Below are positions 1,697-9,200 of a stretch of DNA of 16,420 nt, piece after piece. The translations under genes and the position numbers were made by a program. Where the stretch lies: contig JAGOGU010000012.1 of NCBI GenBank assembly GCA_017996515.1, positions 1-16,420 of the forward strand, given 5' to 3'. Origin of the DNA: Allobrachymonas sp. (lineage in GTDB: Bacteria; Pseudomonadota; Gammaproteobacteria; Burkholderiales; Burkholderiaceae_C). The notes below the pieces were generated by a model. It was not told where the DNA came from, did not search any database, and saw nothing but the letters and a program-made list of their open reading frames with translations. Each line of letters starts with the position of its first letter. Position 1 is the stretch's first letter.

Positions 1697-1999
1697 ATGT
1701 TGCTCACGGAAAGAGAGCTTGAAAAGCTGGTCGTTTTCAATATGGCCGCTGTGGCCGAGAAGCGCAAGGCTAAAGGCCTGAAGTTGAATTTCCCCGAAGC
1801 TGTTGCCCTGATCACTGCCGCCGCTCTGGAAGGCGCACGCGAAGGCAAAACGCTGGAACAGGTCATGGCATCTTCTGCCAAAGTGGTTTCGAAGAAAGAC
1901 GTGATGGACGGCGTGGCTGATCTGGTTCCCCTGATCCAGGTTGAAGGCGTGTTCACTGATGGCAGTAGGCTCATCACTGTGCACGATCCTATCCAGTAA
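1697..1999 (+). CDS. ureA: Urease subunit gamma
   Basis: This 100-residue protein has exactly the usual length of the urease gamma subunit, the smallest structural part of the cytoplasmic nickel enzyme that hydrolyses urea to ammonia and carbamate. The family pattern is clear: an N-terminal LTERELEKL segment, then [20 protein letters not shown] (about residues 22-41), [14 protein letters not shown], and the closing block [18 protein letters not shown]. The ATG at 1697 is preceded by a strong ribosome site, TAGGAGGT at 1685-1692. It is the first gene of the cluster and lies 56 bases before ureB. Gamma and beta are separate genes here, unlike Helicobacter, where they are fused. The codons favour GGC/GGT, GCT and CGC and look well adapted for expression. 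Confidence 0.97.
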
Positions 2000-2055
2000 T
2001 TGCGCGTTTTTATTTTCAAGAACAGACCAAATTCATTCTTTTTAAGGAGATCGAC

Positions 2056-2472
2056 ATGTCTGGAGGTGGAGCTTTTGGTGCTGGCCGCATTGGCGGCATC
2101 ATTCCGGCTAAAGGTGAGATTGAAATCAACGCCGGCCGTCCCGTAACAAAACTGAAAGTGCGCAACACAGGTGACCGTCCTGTGCAAATCGGTTCGCACT
2201 TCCACTTCTTCGAAGTGAACCGCGCTATCGAGTTCGATCGTGAAAAAGCTTTCGGCAAACACTTGAACATTCCTGCTGCCACCGCTGTGCGTCTGGAGCC
2301 CGGTATGGAGCAAGAAGTTGAACTGGTTCCCTACGCTGGCAAGCAAGTGGTTTATGGCTTCAACAACCTGGTTGACGGCTGGGCTGGCGCTGAAGGCAAG
2401 AGCGCTTACAACCCTGACCTGATCAAGGCCATGAAAAAAGTTGCAGAGCTTGGCTTCTCTAACAAGAAGTAA
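2056..2472 (+). CDS. ureB: Urease subunit beta with C-terminal extension
   Basis: The product is 138 residues; many bacterial beta subunits are about 100-106. The core is unmistakable: [17 protein letters not shown] (residues 13-29), [21 protein letters not shown] (35-55) and an [15 protein letters not shown] run (60-74). After the usual end near GFNN (101-104) the chain continues for about 34 residues (NLVDGW, then a basic helix [11 protein letters not shown] and SNKK). Helicobacter pylori UreA, a gamma-beta fusion, ends in a comparable GFNALVD-type extension that mediates assembly of its large supercomplex, and gamma plus beta here total 238 residues, the length I recall for that fusion. 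The residues before the core ([12 protein letters not shown]) are Gly-rich. The start is supported by TAAGGAGA about 6 bases upstream. Confidence 0.96.
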
Positions 2473-2492
2473 GTCTCGCGCAGTGTTTAGTG

Positions 2493-2508
2493 TGTTTCCA
2501 GTGAAACA
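2493..2508. promoter_or_regulatory. parS-like palindrome / small hairpin between ureB and ureC
   Basis: TGTTTCCAGTGAAACA matches the widespread parS consensus TGTTTCACGTGAAACA at 14 of 16 positions. Both differences are in the central CACGTG, where CA replaces AC. The arms TGTTTC and GAAACA are perfectly complementary with a 4-base CAGT loop. It could be a weak ParB site (parB lies about 11 kb away) or simply an RNA hairpin in the 64-base ureB-ureC spacer. No better parS was seen in the window. Confidence 0.3.
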
Positions 2509-2536
2509 TTCCTGATATTTGAGAGGAAAGCATAAA

Positions 2537-4273
2537 ATGGCTAAGATTTCTCGTGAACAATATGTAGGTCTGTACGGCCCCACAGTAGGCGACAAAATTC
2601 GCCTGGGCGACACCGACCTGTTTGTTGAAATTGAAAAAGACCTGCGCGCCAGCTATGGTGACGAGGCCGTGTTCGGTGGTGGTAAAACACTGCGTGACGG
2701 CATGGGCTTCGACAACACGGCTACCAGCGGTGCTGGCTGCTTGGACTTGGTTCTGACCAACGCCACCATCATTGACCCTATCCAGGGCGTGATCAAGGCC
2801 GACATCGGTATCAAAGACGGCAAAATCGCCGGTATCGGTAAAGCCGGTAACCCCAACACCATGCAAGGCGTTACTCCTGGCATGGCTTGCGGCCCAGCTA
2901 CCGACGCCATCAACTGCGGTTCTACCATCGTAACTGCCGGTGGTATCGATACCCACGTTCACTCCATCTGCCCGCAGATCGACAACACCGCTCTGGCTGG
3001 TGGCTGTACCACTCTGGTGGCTGGTGGTTTTGGTCCTACTGACGGTACCAACGCTACTACCGTAACTTCCGGTGTGTGGAACGTTGAGCAAATGCTGCGC
3101 AGCCAGGAAGCCATGCCTTTGAACATGTGCTTGATGGGTAAAGGTCAAGCTGCTGCTGGTCAAGGCGCTGGCAAAGCCACTCTGGTTGAGCAAATCGAAG
3201 CCGGCGTTGGCGCATTCAAGATCCACGAAGACTGGGGTACAACTCCCAACGCGATTCGTGCCTGCTTGCGCGTAGCCGACGAATACGATGTGCAAGTTGC
3301 CATCCACACCGACACGCTGAACGAATCCGGCTATGTGGAAGACTCCATTGCCGCTTTCGAAGGTCGTGCAATCCACACATTCCACACGGAAGGTGGCGGT
3401 GGCGGTCACGCTCCTGACATCATCCGTACAGCCGGCTTCATGAACGTGCTGCCTTCTTCGACCAACCCCAGCCTGCCATTCGGCGTGAACACACAGGCTG
3501 AGTTGTTCGACATGATCTGCGTGTGCCACCACTTGAACCCAGCTATTCCTTCCGACGCTGCCTTCGCTGAAAGCCGCGTTCGTTCGGAAACCATCGCTGC
3601 GGAAAACGTGCTGCACGATCTGGGCGCTATCTCCATGTTCTCGTCCGACACCCAAGCCATGGGTCGTATCGGTGAAAACTGGCAACGTGCCATCCAGACT
3701 GCTCACGCCATGAAACAAGCTCGTGGCAAGCTGCCTGAAGATGCGAAAGACAACGACAACTTCCGCGTTCTGCGCTATGTTGCCAAAATGACCATCAACC
3801 CCGCTATCACTCACGGTATCGGCCATGTAGTCGGTTCTATCGAAGTGGGCAAAATGGCTGACTTGGTGCTGTGGGCTCCTGAAATGTTCGGCGCCAAACC
3901 CAAGATGATTATCAAGGGCGGCATGATCAGCTACAGCGTAATGGGTGACCCCAACGCTTCGCTGCCAACTTGCCAGCCATTGGTGTATCGTCGCATGTAC
4001 GGCGCTCTGGGCGGCGCGATTGGTGCAACATGTGCCAACTTCGTTTCCCAGGCTGCTCTGGACCGCAACATCAACGAGCGTCTGGGCTTGGCCAAGCAGG
4101 CAATTGCTGTGAAGAACTGCCGTTCCATCAGCAAAGCCGACATGGTTCTGAACAACTATGCGCCTGTGATCAAGGTCAATCCTGAGACCTTCGCGGTAAC
4201 CATTGACGGCGTGCACCTGACAGTGCCTCCAGTCAAGGATGCCAAACTCAACCAGCTGTACTTCTTCAGCTGA
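2537..4273 (+). CDS. ureC: Urease subunit alpha (catalytic, dinuclear nickel)
   Basis: This 578-residue protein is the catalytic subunit. By alignment to the Klebsiella enzyme, all expected ligands are present: His140 and His142 (THVHSICPQ), Lys228 (the carbamylated bridging lysine in FKIHEDWG), His257 (AIHTDTLNE), His283 (HTFHTEG) and Asp371 (SSDTQAMGR). The catalytic and flap residues His230, Asp232, Cys330-His331 (CVCHH) and Arg347 are also present, so it should be active. Departures include Ser143 where an aromatic residue is common, GGGGGHAPD for GAGGGHAPD, and GENWQRAIQTAHAMK where most ureases have GE-(V/T)-x-x-RTWQ. These blocks resemble the Yersinia-type alpha subunit as I recall it. 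The ATG at 2537 is chosen because GAGAGGA at 2521-2527 is correctly spaced; an in-frame TTG at 2519 overlaps that site. It lies 64 bases after ureB. Confidence 0.97.
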   Translation: MAKISREQYVGLYGPTVGDKIRLGDTDLFVEIEKDLRASYGDEAVFGGGKTLRDGMGFDNTATSGAGCLDLVLTNATIIDPIQGVIKADIGIKDGKIAGIGKAGNPNTMQGVTPGMACGPATDAINCGSTIVTAGGIDTHVHSICPQIDNTALAGGCTTLVAGGFGPTDGTNATTVTSGVWNVEQMLRSQEAMPLNMCLMGKGQAAAGQGAGKATLVEQIEAGVGAFKIHEDWGTTPNAIRACLRVADEYDVQVAIHTDTLNESGYVEDSIAAFEGRAIHTFHTEGGGGGHAPDIIRTAGFMNVLPSSTNPSLPFGVNTQAELFDMICVCHHLNPAIPSDAAFAESRVRSETIAAENVLHDLGAISMFSSDTQAMGRIGENWQRAIQTAHAMKQARGKLPEDAKDNDNFRVLRYVAKMTINPAITHGIGHVVGSIEVGKMADLVLWAPEMFGAKPKMIIKGGMISYSVMGDPNASLPTCQPLVYRRMYGALGGAIGATCANFVSQAALDRNINERLGLAKQAIAVKNCRSISKADMVLNNYAPVIKVNPETFAVTIDGVHLTVPPVKDAKLNQLYFFS

Positions 4274-4285
4274 TCCACGATGCGT

Positions 4286-4317
4286 CGGGTCATGAGGCGT
4301 CATGCTTTAATGACCCG
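4286..4317 (+). other. Hairpin 1 in the ureC-ureE spacer
   Basis: CGGGTCAT (4286-4293) and ATGACCCG (4310-4317) form a perfect 8-base-pair stem with a 16-base loop, starting 13 bases after the ureC stop. No T-run follows, so it is not a standard intrinsic terminator. It may protect the 3' end of the structural-gene message. Confidence 0.55.
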
Positions 4318-4322
4318 CCATC

Positions 4323-4370
4323 TGGTTTTACCCCCTGTTGTGCTGCAAGGCATTGCAGGGGGTATTACCA
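4323..4370 (+). other. Hairpin 2 in the ureC-ureE spacer
   Basis: TACCCCCTG (4329-4337) pairs perfectly with CAGGGGGTA (4356-4364). Beyond a two-base T/T mismatch, TGGT (4323-4326) pairs with ACCA (4367-4370), making 13 pairs in total. The loop can form a competing inner hairpin, CTGCAA-GGCA-TTGCAG. There is no U-tract. Its position between the structural genes and the accessory genes suggests RNA processing, message stabilisation or partial attenuation that sets subunit-to-chaperone ratios. Confidence 0.6.
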
Positions 4371-4407
4371 GCATCTTTAAGTAGTGTTAACCGGAGTTGA
4401 AGTAAAA

Positions 4408-5061
4408 ATGCTGATCGTCGATACCGTTTTGGGTAACACCAGCGACAAGCAATGGCAAGATCGTGCCGCTGCAGCTAAAGTAGATTATTTGGCGCTGGAT
4501 CAGTGGGATGCTCAAAAGAACCGTCTGCGTCGTAAAACAGAACAAGGCAATGACATCGCGGTTTCGCTGCCCCGCAATACTTTTTTGCAAAATGGGGACG
4601 TGTTGGCGTTTGATGAAGCCAGCCAATCGATGATCGTCGCAAAAATCAATTTGCGCGATGTATTGATTATCGAAATCAAAGAACTGCTGAAAAAAGACCA
4701 GTCTGAACTGGTTCGTCTGTGCATTGAGTTGGGTCATGCCTTGGGCAACCAGCATTGGCCCGCCGTCGTGCGCGACAACAAGATCATTCTTCCGCTTACG
4801 GTAGATAAAAAGGTCATGACATCGGTTATGCGCACGCATGCTTTCCCCGATATCACTTACGACTTCCATCCTGCGGAAGTTGCTATTCCCTATTTGCTAC
4901 CGCATGAGGCGCGTCGCTTGTTTGGTGGCGCGGATCAAGGCTCGGTGGATATGTCGCATCATGTACATGGCGCACACGGAGGTCATGGTGCTGTCCCTCC
5001 CGGGCATCACAGCCACGATGGCGGCTTGACGCACCATGCCGATCATGGGCATAGCCATTAA
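4408..5061 (+). CDS. ureE: Urease nickel metallochaperone UreE with His-rich tail
   Basis: The product is 217 residues. UreE dimers bind nickel and hand it to UreG during urease maturation. The N-terminal peptide-binding domain is followed by the metal-binding domain, which shows the family signature LGHALGNQHWP (residues 108-118); His115 corresponds to the conserved interface His of Klebsiella UreE (His96). PYLLPHEARRLFG (161-173) is the usual end of the core. A tail of about 40 residues follows with 13 histidines (from H184 in SHHVHGAHGGHG to the terminal HGHSH), a typical nickel-buffering tail. The ATG at 4408 is preferred: it starts the typical MLIVDTVLGN sequence, with GGAG 11 bases upstream. 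An in-frame GTG at 4384 would add eight unlikely residues. A 134-base spacer with two hairpins separates it from ureC. Confidence 0.94.
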   Translation: MLIVDTVLGNTSDKQWQDRAAAAKVDYLALDQWDAQKNRLRRKTEQGNDIAVSLPRNTFLQNGDVLAFDEASQSMIVAKINLRDVLIIEIKELLKKDQSELVRLCIELGHALGNQHWPAVVRDNKIILPLTVDKKVMTSVMRTHAFPDITYDFHPAEVAIPYLLPHEARRLFGGADQGSVDMSHHVHGAHGGHGAVPPGHHSHDGGLTHHADHGHSH

Positions 5062-5093
5062 TATCACATGGGATGACGTTAGTAACCTATTGA

Positions 5094-5122
5094 TTGTAAA
5101 AGAATTGTCGGGTTGCGATAAT
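5094..5122 (+). promoter_or_regulatory. Candidate internal promoter before the His/Cys-rich gene
   Basis: TTGTAA (5094-5099) lies 17 bases before GATAAT (5117-5122). The -10 box is preceded by TGC, giving an extended -10 element. It sits in the 120-base ureE to His/Cys-gene spacer, unusually long for this cluster. If active, it would give the His/Cys-rich gene and downstream ureFGD their own transcript with a leader of about 50 bases. Confidence 0.4.
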
Positions 5123-5181
5123 TCCGTCGGCAGCCAGATCAGTGCTGCTGTTTCAATCATCAAGTAAAGGAAGTTTTAATC

Positions 5182-5502
5182 ATGACTAACACACAACATA
5201 CCCATACCCATACCCATGCAGACGGCACCAAGCATGCGCACGAACATGCTGAGTGCTGCGGCAAAACCGATTGTTGCGATCACAACCACGAGCATCAGCA
5301 CGCGCATGCGCATACCCATGCCGACGGTACAGCGCATACCCATGCGCATGACGAATGCTGCGGCAAAACCGATTGTTGCGATCACAGCCATGAGCATAGA
5401 CACGATCACGCACATACGCATGCCGACGGCACAGCGCATACCCATGCGCACGACGAATGCTGCGACAAGGGTGACTGCTGTGGTCACGATCACAAGCACT
5501 GA
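5182..5502 (+). CDS. Small His/Cys-rich tandem-repeat protein, probable nickel-binding protein
   Basis: The product is 106 residues, with 30 His and 12 Cys. After a short lead (MTNTQHTHT) it consists of three 34-residue repeats (residues 10-43, 44-77 and 78-106, the last truncated). Each has the plan HTHADGT, an HxHxH run, a Cys pair, G/DKxD, a second Cys pair, then an HxHxH run. There is no signal peptide or membrane segment, so it should be cytoplasmic. I recognise no named family. The composition resembles Helicobacter Hpn, a His-rich nickel-storage protein that also has Cys pairs, but the repeat design differs and the likeness may be convergent. Position between ureE and ureF implies a role in nickel buffering for urease; zinc or copper binding is an alternative. 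AAAGGAAG about 9 bases upstream supports the ATG. A candidate promoter lies at 5094-5122. Confidence 0.85.
   Translation: MTNTQHTHTHTHADGTKHAHEHAECCGKTDCCDHNHEHQHAHAHTHADGTAHTHAHDECCGKTDCCDHSHEHRHDHAHTHADGTAHTHAHDECCDKGDCCGHDHKH
5209..5499 (+). repeat. Three tandem 102-bp repeats within the His/Cys-rich gene
   Basis: Units start at 5209, 5311 and 5413 (period exactly 102 bp, 34 codons); the third stops after 87 bp at the stop codon. Units 1 and 2 share an identical 31-base run over the Cys-pair region (5254-5284 and 5356-5386). Units 2 and 3 are nearly identical over their first 50 or so bases. Unit 3 differs in its second Cys-pair segment. This indicates growth by tandem duplication, so the copy number may vary between strains. 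Confidence 0.9.
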
Positions 5503-5516
5503 TTGATTTGTTAACT

Positions 5517-6281
5517 ATGAATACCGCAGTTCAAGAAAACAAAAGCAATGCCGCTACAGGCGTTGAGCGTCGGATAGCCGATATGTCTTTGCTGCACTGG
5601 GTGCAGGCATTGCAATTTGGCGACTCTACGCTTCCAACAGGGGCGTTCACTTTCTCGCATGGGCTGGAGTCGGCTATTGAGCGCGGTCTGGTCACTGATG
5701 CCAAAACGTTGCACAGCTTTACCAAAACGGCTGTGGAGCAAGCAGCCAGCGGTGACGCCATTGCGGTGCTGCATGCTTGGCGTGCAGCACGTAAAGGCGA
5801 TCTGCAAAAACTGATACAAATTGACCGTGCGGTATTCAACCGCAAGCTCAACGAAGAGTTTCGCAGCATGACGATCAAAACCGGCAAGAAACTCATTGAG
5901 TTGGCCGACAAGGTCGTCAATGCTTCACGCGATGCGGACCTGTTGAGCCAGTGGCGCGCCAAAGTGGCCGGTGGCGAAACGGAAGGTACCTATCCGGTTT
6001 GTTTGGCCATCATTTTTGCCGTGCTTGATATTCCGGAGGAAGGTTGCTTTATGGTGCACCAGTATGGTGTGTCCATGGCAATCTTGAGTGCGGCTTTGCG
6101 TCTGGTGAAAGTGGATCACGTTGATACACAGACCATTTTGTTCAAGCTCAATGACACCATTGAGCATGACTATGCCGTTGCGGCCAAGCGTCGCCTGGAG
6201 GACATGGTTGGATTCGCGCCGATGGTGGATATGCTCGCCGCCGTGCATGTCCGTGCGCACGTTCGTATGTTCATGAATTGA
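5517..6281 (+). CDS. ureF: Urease accessory protein UreF
   Basis: The product is 254 residues from the ATG at 5517. UreF binds UreD and UreG on apo-urease and gates GTP hydrolysis by UreG. The family pattern is visible: LHWVQALQFGDSTLPTGAFTFSHGLE (about 26-51, equivalent to the usual L-x-D-S-x-L-P-x-G-x-F-S-H-S-x-GLE block), then an all-helical protein with an EGTYPVCLAI segment and a C-terminal FAPMVDMLAAVH. The start is uncertain. ATG 5517 lies only 14 bases after the previous stop and has no clear Shine-Dalgarno site; ATG 5583 (MSLLHW), preceded by CGGAT, would give 232 residues and fits the family N-terminus better. Initiation at 5517 could be coupled to the preceding gene. Confidence 0.92.
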   Translation: MNTAVQENKSNAATGVERRIADMSLLHWVQALQFGDSTLPTGAFTFSHGLESAIERGLVTDAKTLHSFTKTAVEQAASGDAIAVLHAWRAARKGDLQKLIQIDRAVFNRKLNEEFRSMTIKTGKKLIELADKVVNASRDADLLSQWRAKVAGGETEGTYPVCLAIIFAVLDIPEEGCFMVHQYGVSMAILSAALRLVKVDHVDTQTILFKLNDTIEHDYAVAAKRRLEDMVGFAPMVDMLAAVHVRAHVRMFMN

Positions 6282-6312
6282 TTTTTTTGTAGCCTGAGAG
6301 AGATTTAGCATC

Positions 6313-6951
6313 ATGTCCGAAAAGAAAATTACACGTATTGGTGTTGGCGGTCCTGTAGGTTCCGGCAAAACAGCCATCATTGAAGCGATTACGCCTATCC
6401 TGCTCGACATGGGTGTGCGCGTGGTCATCATCACCAATGACATCGTAACCACCGAAGACGCCAAGCACGTCAAACGCACGCTCAAAGGCATTCTGGCTGA
6501 AGAGCGCATCATTGGCGTGGAAACCGGTGCTTGCCCGCACACAGCCGTGCGCGAAGACCCCAGCATGAACCTGGCGGCTGTTGAAGACATGGAAAACAAA
6601 TTCCCTGATACCGATCTGGTTATCATGGAAAGCGGCGGCGACAACCTGACCCTGACGTTCAGCCCTGCATTGGTTGACTTCTTCATCTACGTGATTGACG
6701 TGGCCGCCGGCGAGAAAATTCCTCGTAAAAACGGTCCCGGCATCACCCAGTCGGACATTCTGGTCATCAACAAAACAGATTTGGCGCCGATGGTTGGCGC
6801 CAGCTTGGAAGTGATGGATCATGACTCCAAAGTCATGCGTGGCGAGAAGCCTTACATCTTCACCAATTGCAAAACCGGTGAGGGCATCCGCGAGCTGGCG
6901 GAGTTGATCCACCGCGACTGTCTGTTTGACGTGCCCCGTGCTGACAAATAA
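6313..6951 (+). CDS. ureG: Urease accessory GTPase UreG
   Basis: This 212-residue SIMIBI-class GTPase drives nickel insertion into urease. The P-loop GPVGSGKT is at residues 13-20. The metal-binding motif Cys74-Pro75-His76 is in [22 protein letters not shown] (about 105-112) is the switch/Walker B region, and NKTD at 153-156 is the guanine-specificity motif. The length is typical, and this is the best conserved accessory protein. GAGAGAG upstream serves as ribosome site, and 31 bases separate it from ureF. It would receive nickel from UreE and dock on the UreD-UreF complex. Confidence 0.97.
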
Positions 6952-6981
6952 GCACATGCGTTTTTGACCATTGCCTGGCCT

Positions 6982-7008
6982 GCTCCTGCTATCTGTATAG
7001 ATAGGAGC
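6982..7008 (+). other. Hairpin in the ureG-ureD spacer
   Basis: CTATCT (6989-6994) pairs with AGATAG (6999-7004) around a GTAT loop, and GCTC (6982-6985) pairs with GAGC (7005-7008) across a three-base bulge. It lies in the 85-base ureG-ureD spacer and has no T-run. It may tune expression of the distal genes. Confidence 0.4.
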
Positions 7009-7036
7009 GGGAAACGGCAAGACTAACGAATAGAAA

Positions 7037-8167
7037 ATGGATATGCCGACAAACCAACAGAAGGACAAAGCGCCAGAGCAGCAAATTGATGCTGCCAGTG
7101 CCGCAGCGCCTGCATCGTCAGGGTTGCTGGACAACTTCATGCCGGAAGCCGAGTTCCAGGCTTTTCTCAAAACCTTGCCTGAATCTACGCAATGGCTGGG
7201 CGATGGCATTCCCCGTGATTGCGAGCCTTGGCGTCGCGCCCAGGTACTGGGTACGGAAGCGGCCGAGTTTGATAACTACCGCGATGAACCAGGCCAGTTC
7301 CACAGCGCGGGCTTGGGTAAAAACGGCTTTATCCGTTTCCGCATGGATCTGGATATGGACGGCAAGCGCACCGTCATGAAAGAGCTGGAGCGCCGCGCGC
7401 CATTCCTGGCGCTCAAGGCGCGGCCTTGGGATGAGGCCATGCCTGAAATGTGCTGCATGTACATCTGCTCCACAGGTGGCGGCATGCTGCAGGGCGACCG
7501 TTACAGCATCGAGTTCACCGTGGAAGAAGGCGCAACAGCCTACGTTTCCACGCAAAGCGCCAACAAGATTCAGGCCATGAACGCCAACTATGCGGTACAG
7601 GCGCAAACGGTGCATGTGAAAGATAACGCCTATCTCGAATACATGCCCGACCTGACCATTCCCTGCAAAAACTCGCGTTTCCTGACCGACACGCGCTTGG
7701 AAGTAGGGGATAACTCCACCGTGCTGTACGGCGAGATTCTGGTTCCAGGGCGCATTCACCACAGTCCGGAAGAGTACTTCGGCTTTGATGTGTATTCGGC
7801 TTGTGTACGTGCCTATAACAAGCAGGGCAAGGAACTATTCTGCGAAAAATTCGTGATTGAGCCGAAAAAGCAGGACTTGCAGCAGTTGGGCATGTTGCAG
7901 GGCTTCGAAATTTATGGCAATGTGATATTGCTGACGCCCAAAGAGCATGCAGATGCGATTTTCGAGCAAATGGATGCGAAATTCAGTGTGAAAGATCAGG
8001 TGGCGAGTGGTGTAAGCCGTTTGCCAAATGACGCAGGACTCATATTCAAAGTTCTTGGCAAAGAGGTCAAGCCTGTGCGAGAACGGATCCATGAGTTCTG
8101 GCGAGTGGTGAGAAAGGTTGTCAAGGGGGCGGAACTACCTGATCCGTTCTTGTGGCGCCCATACTGA
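7037..8167 (+). CDS. ureD: Urease accessory protein UreD (UreH) with long N-terminal extension
   Basis: The product is 376 residues; many UreD proteins are about 270-280. UreD is the scaffold linking apo-urease to UreF and UreG and provides a nickel tunnel. Family features are STGGGMLQGDRY (145-156, matching the usual PPGGxxxGD turn), an ATAYVSTQSANKI segment, LEYMPDLTIPCKNSRF (the usual EWLPQExIxFxxA block) and a C-terminal FLWRPY. The first 90-100 residues are extra: a low-complexity, Ala/Gln-rich start (to about residue 28) and then a region (FMPEAEFQAFLKTLP) I cannot assign. ureD follows ureG rather than preceding ureA as in many betaproteobacteria. The ribosome site is weak. Start codons further in cannot be excluded, but sequence similarity to the family begins well after residue 90. 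Confidence 0.93.
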   Translation: MDMPTNQQKDKAPEQQIDAASAAAPASSGLLDNFMPEAEFQAFLKTLPESTQWLGDGIPRDCEPWRRAQVLGTEAAEFDNYRDEPGQFHSAGLGKNGFIRFRMDLDMDGKRTVMKELERRAPFLALKARPWDEAMPEMCCMYICSTGGGMLQGDRYSIEFTVEEGATAYVSTQSANKIQAMNANYAVQAQTVHVKDNAYLEYMPDLTIPCKNSRFLTDTRLEVGDNSTVLYGEILVPGRIHHSPEEYFGFDVYSACVRAYNKQGKELFCEKFVIEPKKQDLQQLGMLQGFEIYGNVILLTPKEHADAIFEQMDAKFSVKDQVASGVSRLPNDAGLIFKVLGKEVKPVRERIHEFWRVVRKVVKGAELPDPFLWRPY

Positions 8168-8186
8168 GCTGACGCTCGGGTTTTTT
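8164..8186 (+). terminator. Short terminator-like hairpin at the ureD stop
   Basis: CTGAGC (8164-8169) pairs with GCTCGG (8174-8179), one pair being G-T, around a TGAC loop; G and six T residues (8181-8186) follow. The stem overlaps the ureD stop codon. The stem is short, so termination would be partial and would lower expression of the urea channel relative to urease. Confidence 0.5.
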
Positions 8187-8204
8187 CATAAAAAGGAGAG
8201 AGAG

Positions 8205-9200
8205 ATGGTAGATGCTGCAAATGCCCAGTCCGGCAATCCTTGGACCCGGGCGGCCAATAGCAATCCGGTCGTGGAGTTTATCGACAATGTCCTGCGCGGT
8301 TCTGGTCAGGTCATTTTCATGAACAATCCTTTGACAGGTTTGCTCAACTTTATCGCTATGTTTGTGGGTGCTTACAACGGTGGTACATCCTTCGCGGTAG
8401 CCATTGGTTCCGTCATTGGTACCGTAGCTTCCACAGCCATGGCCTACATCATGAACTCGAACCGTGACAACCTCAGAGCAGGTATTTACGGCTTCAACGG
8501 CATGCTGGTAGGCGCTTGCTTGCCAACATTCCTGACACATACCGCTTTGATGTGGGTGTTTGTGGTAGTGGGTTCGATGTTCTCGACGTTGGTTATCATG
8601 GCGGTGGGCAATTTCCTGACACCGTACAAAATGCCTGCGTTCACATTCCCCTTCGTGCTGATCTGCTGGATCATCGTGGCATTCAGCTACAAAGTGGGTG
8701 GCCTGAACACCGGCGGTTTGGCTCCTGCCATGCTGACGGACTACACGGCGCAAGAAGGCGTGATGCAAGCTGGTGATTTCATCAAAGCCGGCCTGACCAG
8801 CATGTCGCAAGTCTGGTTCGTGGCTGACTGGATGGCTGGCATCATCTTCATCGTTGCACTGCTGGTGGAATCTTTCTGGTGTGCCGGTTTGAGCGCTTTG
8901 GGTGCCTTCCTGGGCCCCGTAATTGCTTACCTGTGCGGCGCAAGCGTTGCTGACATCAACTTCGGTCTGTGGGGCTTTACGGCTGCGCTGACTGCTCCTG
9001 CTGTTGGCTGCGTATTCCTGCAAACCAATGCGAAGAATGTGGCCTTGGCCGTGTTCTCGATCTTCGCAACAGTCGTGGTACACGGTGCGGTTGTGGCATT
9101 CCTGACACCTGTTGGTCTGCCTGCCTTTACCTTCCCGTTCAACCTGACTGGCTGGTTGTTCCTCTTTGCCGTGATGACATGGTCTACTGAGGCGAAATAA
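8205..9200 (+). CDS. yut: Urea channel of the UT/Yut family
   Basis: The product is a 331-residue inner-membrane protein with about ten hydrophobic segments and the inverted two-half design of urea transporters (mammalian UT, Yersinia Yut, Actinobacillus ApUT, Desulfovibrio DvUT). Half one has QVIFMNNPLTGLL (35-47), GFNGMLVG (97-104) and PAFTFPF (144-150). Half two has QVWFVADW (202-209), GFTAALTA (257-264) and PAFTFPF (306-312). These line the narrow pore that conducts urea passively. AAAAGGAGAG immediately upstream fixes the ATG at 8205; a longer reading from 8118 would overlap ureD and has no family support. It is the last gene of the cluster. The pairing of urease with a UT-family channel is known from Yersinia, where nixA follows; no nickel permease follows here. 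Confidence 0.94.
   Translation: MVDAANAQSGNPWTRAANSNPVVEFIDNVLRGSGQVIFMNNPLTGLLNFIAMFVGAYNGGTSFAVAIGSVIGTVASTAMAYIMNSNRDNLRAGIYGFNGMLVGACLPTFLTHTALMWVFVVVGSMFSTLVIMAVGNFLTPYKMPAFTFPFVLICWIIVAFSYKVGGLNTGGLAPAMLTDYTAQEGVMQAGDFIKAGLTSMSQVWFVADWMAGIIFIVALLVESFWCAGLSALGAFLGPVIAYLCGASVADINFGLWGFTAALTAPAVGCVFLQTNAKNVALAVFSIFATVVVHGAVVAFLTPVGLPAFTFPFNLTGWLFLFAVMTWSTEAK

Follow-up and report, generated by a model that had tools for sequence, protein, structure and literature searches.

A His/Cys repeat protein encoded between ureE and ureF as a probable nickel reservoir for urease maturation

Why should a urease operon carry, between the genes for two of its maturation proteins, a separate gene for a small protein dense in histidine and cysteine? 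In the window (the whole stretch of DNA analysed, 16,420 nucleotides), the genes run on the plus strand in the order ureA-ureB-ureC-ureE-HC-ureF-ureG-ureD-urea transporter, where HC stands for the His/Cys repeat protein (Table 1). The preliminary description had placed between ureE and ureF of a urease operon a protein of 106 residues made of three 34-residue units, its 30 His accompanied by 12 Cys arranged as six CC pairs; translation of 5182-5502 gave exactly that composition, and Pfam and NCBIfam matches on the neighbours confirmed the setting. The UreE of the window has the core motif GNQH, read from the sequence, and a His-rich C-terminal tail, and its UreE_C match (Pfam, 2.4e-4, 21.7 bits) falls under the cut-off of 23. 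The listed start of the urea transporter ORF is mechanical, and the true start is probably later. The gap between ureE and HC holds a single promoter-like site, TTGTAA-17-GATAAT at 5094-5122, which is not above expectation, as shuffled sequences gave a mean of 0.8. A similar site, TTGCAA-17-AATAAT, can be read from the sequence at the matching place in the G005 genome, described below.

Table 1. Positions of the features discussed, counted from the first nucleotide of the window.
Feature	Position	Strand	Details
ureA, ureB, ureC (urease gamma, beta, alpha subunits)	1697..4273	+	Pfam
ureE, nickel metallochaperone	4408..5061	+	Pfam UreE_N 3.2e-17
Ribosome-binding-site-like AAAGGAAG	5166..5173	+	ATG of HC 8 bases on; read from sequence
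His/Cys repeat protein (HC protein) gene	5182..5502	+	106 aa, 30 His, 12 Cys
HC repeat unit 1, residues 6-39	5197..5298	+	
CCGKTDCC, unit 1 of HC	5254..5277	+	
HC repeat unit 2, residues 40-73	5299..5400	+	
CCGKTDCC, second copy in HC gene	5356-5379	+	
HC repeat unit 3, residues 74-106	5401..5499	+	
CCDKGDCC in HC gene	5458-5481	+	
ureF	5517..6281	+	Pfam UreF 1.1e-34
ureG	6313..6951	+	TIGR00101 4.7e-84
ureD	7037..8167	+	Pfam UreD 3.8e-45
Urea transporter	8118..9200	+	Pfam UT 3.3e-79

Each HC unit joins a run of alternating histidines, HxHxHADGTxHxHxH, to a CC-x4-CC clip. The HADGT motif recurs at residues 12, 46 and 80, the six CC pairs begin at residues 25, 31, 59, 65, 93 and 99 of the translation, and comparison of the protein with itself at a shift of 34 gave 54 identities in 72 positions (75%), marking out the three 34-residue units. 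Domain searches assigned HC to no family: Pfam gave nothing at E up to 1, with both UreE_N and UreE_C absent; NCBIfam gave nothing above cut-off, its one weak match (E 0.051) scoring 10.9 bits where 650 are required; and the single match in the PDB, at E 3.1, is not meaningful.

Strong HC homologues came from one genus. Six short peptide patterns run against GTDB species genomes retrieved one relative, a MAG named Brachymonas sp. (L005), which we treated as one genome with G003. When 60 genomes were searched, the genome of the window included, strong matches were found in that genome, G003 and G005, all of the same genus; 36 of the 60 gave a match of some strength at E of 1 or less, and every one beyond these three was at 0.00276 or worse. 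The preliminary description had pointed to the context of homologues as informative, and all three strong homologues lie between ureE and ureF, with 14 bases from the HC stop to the ureF start in the window, 5 in G003 and 10 in G005. The G003 protein has three units, and that of G005 has four (143 aa, 40 His, 16 Cys), its gene also being preceded by a sequence, AAAGGAA, that can be read as a ribosome-binding site. In P0001, a copy of the G003 protein from a metagenome, the reading frame shifts after the second unit or CC-x4-CC motif, which looks like either faulty assembly or a gene that is broken.

Low-complexity DNA such as this, overlapped by further ORFs of 107 and 96 aa in antisense and in another frame, could in principle produce a spurious ORF out of its repeats, a reading to which we give next to no credence and which was rejected. 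The codon pattern rules strongly against it: between the window and G003, the His/Cys codons show 17 synonymous and no non-synonymous changes, and the remaining codons show 19 synonymous and 20 non-synonymous, and therefore selection acts on the His/Cys ligands. Of the 105 columns without gaps in an alignment of the three proteins, the 42 with His/Cys were all invariant and 32 of the other 63 variable, with a hypergeometric value of 1e-9 that serves as a guide only, the columns being non-independent within repeats and across three related sequences. The number of units changes by whole, in-frame units, the gene has a ribosome-binding-site-like sequence, and it occupies the same operon slot in each genome, all of which argue against a spurious frame. 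The HC ORF is a real gene. Units within the HC genes are 66-85% identical to one another in DNA, reaching 91% for units 2 and 3 of G005, and these values would fit gain and loss of whole units.

Presence of HC follows that of ureE within the genus: both occur in three of nine genomes and neither in the other six, four of which are at least 94% complete and two 71-76%. The three HC-bearing genomes are themselves incomplete (62% for that of the window, 86% and 83%) and amount to one operon lineage in one genus for the free gene. At its 62% completeness, the genome of the window yielded neither a NicO nickel permease nor a [NiFe] hydrogenase large subunit, absences that say little in so incomplete a genome.

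The origin of HC is best read from UreE itself. A full-length metagenomic UreE of 254 aa (P0018, seven member sequences) ends in one complete HC unit, ...HADGTAHAHDHDECCGKADCCDHNHKHA, and its last 34 residues match units 1-3 of the window at 25, 25 and 24 of 34 positions and those of G003 at 27, 26 and 25 of 34; in the comparison with G005, 22 of 35 columns were identical for unit 1 and 25 of 34 for unit 4. P0002, a C-terminal piece of UreE that runs into one HC unit, is a near-identical partial copy of P0018 on a separate contig. As these contigs are short, unplaced and metagenomic (1195 bp for P0018, 1377 bp for P0002), there is some room for assembly error in the fused form, although the two agree. 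In another UreE cluster (P0019, 179 member sequences, on a contig of 3973 bases) the His tail carries DCCSKEECCG, a CC-x4-CC with a further Cys. Such cysteines are rare in UreE tails, where CC was present in 2 and absent in 118 of the 120 relatives listed out of 2576 found. The His half of the unit also occurs in UreE tails, as HTHTHADGTVHAHPH in P0003 and HQHDDGTEHAHPH in G750 and G877. Because P0018 ends in a complete unit and the P0019 tail has the CC-x4-CC motif, HC is most likely a detached and amplified UreE tail.

A FastTree of UreE cores placed P0018 with G003, P0020 and P0021 (support 0.965), apart from the group of the window and G005; the tree is small, midpoint-rooted and includes P0023. 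That last sequence joins a Brachymonas-like N-terminal part of UreE to a G877-like tail and is probably an assembly chimera. From the tree, free and fused states therefore seem to mix within one clade, and the position of P0018 beside G003 and away from the window and G005 suggests at least one switch between fused and free forms there. More broadly, the His/Cys unit could be a detachable metallochaperone tail that moves between a state fused once to UreE and a free, expandable array acting in trans, the number of units setting how much nickel can be bound while UreE stays unaltered; we hold this wider view tentatively, giving it a little less than even weight.

In other genera of the family, a similar gene was not seen. 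Of 250 genomes of the family, 199 contained a UreF match and 202 a UreE_N match; with 150 places listed for each gene, 117 genomes stood in both lists, and ureE and ureF were adjacent in 113. None of these 113 pairs, all from other genera, had an HC-like gene between them, 7 being judged by sequence and 106 by spacing alone, a measure that might miss a His-rich ORF if it were very short or overlapped its neighbours. The UreE_N and UreF matches were 383-746 bases apart in 111 of the 113, against 1074 in the window; the two exceptions, G205 and G100 at ~1.4 kb, belong to one other genus. Scanning the seven widest gaps revealed no separate His-dense ORF between the genes, and the His-dense frames in the coding direction were UreE itself and, in G100 and G205, long alternate frames outside the gap. 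The ORF in the G100 gap (L020 720-1631, minus strand) is His-poor, with 6 His in a frame of 304 aa, and presumably resembles a SHOCT-type protein.

The UreE of the window is of type NF011299 (E 1e-25), which was found in three genomes out of 349 in the order, its own included. In the other two, G750 and G877, ureF follows ureE at a distance of 16 bases and the space between them lacks an HC gene. G750 also has two small membrane proteins between ureC and ureE (L029 625-1458), which we take to resemble a CrcB fluoride-exporter pair. A UreF query at 1e-20 against 369 genomes of the class sample matched the genome of the window alone and thus gave no comparison. Given how few genomes of the order have this UreE type and that UreF had no other match among the 369, the operon (1697-9200) may be foreign to its family.

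A degenerate DNA pattern for CC-x-K-x-D/E-CC matched three times in the HC gene of the window and once each in 4 of 368 other genomes of the phylum sample and 2 of 334 other genomes of the order sample, the samples overlapping. We regard these six outside matches as background, because the same pattern run backwards as a control matched two genomes and one genome, respectively; none of the six lies in a His-rich ORF, their frames are of at most 68 aa, and one has a stop inside the motif. Protein searches with the single HC sequence gave no match at 1e-3, and a profile built from three sequences returned 11 proteins at E up to 10: P0001, the UreE-related P0002 and P0003, two other His-repeat proteins (P0005, P0007) and six that appear to be of low complexity, with a source name, 'hypothetical protein', on 1 of the 11. 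P0005 and P0007, both metagenomic, carry HTHADGT repeats at the N-terminus, followed by another domain to which a precomputed annotation assigns PF26551, although our own Pfam search found nothing at 0.01; they represent His half-units similar to those of HC outside urease proteins. On plasmids, no match to HC was found, and UreE relatives occurred on five, all below 60% identity.

Among the closest known systems are the His-rich C-terminal tails of UreE in K. aerogenes and P. mirabilis, which belong to the same pathway and to the neighbouring gene, and to which an HC unit is found fused in P0018. A nickel-binding role has been reported for these tails (PMC13044922). HC differs from them in being a separate gene of three or four units that has a start codon and a ribosome-binding-site-like sequence to itself and lacks a UreE domain, and in its CC-x4-CC clips. 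Hpn of gastric Helicobacter, compared here by its published description, is also small, stand-alone and strongly His-rich, has -CC- motifs and is linked to the nickel supply of urease. One or two -CC- motifs were described in every gastric Helicobacter Hpn sequence of one study, and an origin by tandem duplication was proposed for Hpn (PMC4671568), a further likeness to the HC repeats. In contrast to Hpn, HC has six CC pairs, a His share (30/106) below the 47% reported for Hpn, 34-residue units and a place inside the urease operon. In H. pylori the GroES protein HspA carries a nickel-binding C-terminal extension rich in His and Cys, deletion of which was reported to impair maturation of hydrogenase and not of urease (PMC3856676); that segment extends a chaperonin, whereas HC is a protein of its own. 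Similarly, the His-rich N-termini of HypB in Bradyrhizobium and Rhizobium, for which nickel storage or buffering has been proposed (PMC7055735), lie within the maturation protein itself and serve the hydrogenase pathway, unlike the separate HC protein of the urease operon.

Taken together, we consider it likely that HC resides in the cytoplasm, is probably disordered and buffers nickel specifically for the maturation of urease, in effect as the metal-binding tail of UreE detached, multiplied and co-expressed with it. A dedicated nickel reservoir had been suggested in the preliminary description, and it gains support from the co-occurrence with ureE, the same slot in three of three genomes and the unit fused to UreE in P0018. 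The two-tier buffering also raised there, with HC paired to the His-tailed UreE, is conjectural. As a close relative's UreE includes one such unit, this role is most likely, and the operon context and the invariance of His and Cys point the same way. The His tail of P. mirabilis UreE is reported to account for two Ni per dimer (PMC13044922), and efficient nickel binding is reported for the CC motifs of Hpn and HspA (PMC8028610). In the proposed mechanism, HC units would take up Ni(II) whenever the cell has it, hold down the level of free Ni and hand the metal to UreE (through its GN-x-H site and His tail), from which it would go on to UreG-UreF-UreD and apo-urease. Against this reading, His/Cys-rich sequences bind many metals, nickel being the putative one for HC, and the need for a second reservoir is hypothetical, the UreE proteins of the HC genomes being already His-tailed. 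In a two-hybrid study of H. pylori, the reported contacts of Hpn were with UreA, and those of Hpn and Hpn-2 with HypA/HypB, with no contact of either to UreE, UreF, UreG or UreH (PMC4671568), which, by analogy, would speak against a simple hand-over from HC to UreE.

Since the composition of HC would suit several metals, the protein might be mainly a detoxification sponge for Ni, Zn, Cu or Co that is merely co-expressed with urease, which we judge unlikely. Hpn is described as guarding H. pylori when nickel is in excess, and both it and Hpn-2 are reported to have bound Ni, Zn, Co, Cu and Bi in vitro (PMC4671568), but the linkage of HC to ureE in the genus and the unit fused to UreE point to delivery to urease, and HC shares its operon with urease genes and a urea transporter. 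Another reading, decidedly improbable in our estimate, is that HC restrains urease maturation by competing with UreE for nickel and limiting urease when nickel is low. A large reservoir could act as such a competitor, and loss of Hpn-2, which would be the model, was reported to double urease activity in H. pylori under nickel restriction (PMC4671568); UreE itself would however be an odd place to fuse a competitor, and no sequence feature separates restraint from reservoir.

The CC-x4-CC clips might also bind zinc or respond to redox state, either to control the release of nickel or to keep a structural metal in place, leaving nickel to the His runs alone, a division of labor that we find very improbable. 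Thiols are redox-sensitive, and the three HC proteins keep their CC pairs without change. The preliminary description had allowed for another metal or a redox-sensitive site on the Cys pairs; this part is not favoured, because the CC motifs of Hpn and HspA are reported to prefer nickel to zinc, peptides with such a motif forming a more stable complex with Ni(II) than with Zn(II), also where His is available (PMC8028610, citing others).

As for novelty, we found no description of such a His/Cys gene between ureE and ureF in the open-access literature, most subscription papers lying outside that scope. Mixed His/Cys nickel proteins are known from Hpn and HspA, and as a stand-alone His/CC nickel protein HC adds a variant to a type already represented by Hpn. 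It may be the second stand-alone His/CC protein tied to urease after that of gastric Helicobacter, and, we infer, one independent of Hpn. As nature offers the unit in one copy on UreE and in three or four as a free protein, it lets us ask whether a reservoir acts in cis, in trans or by its capacity, a question that bears on the role of UreE His tails and Hpn-type proteins in urease maturation, be it storage, delivery or restraint.
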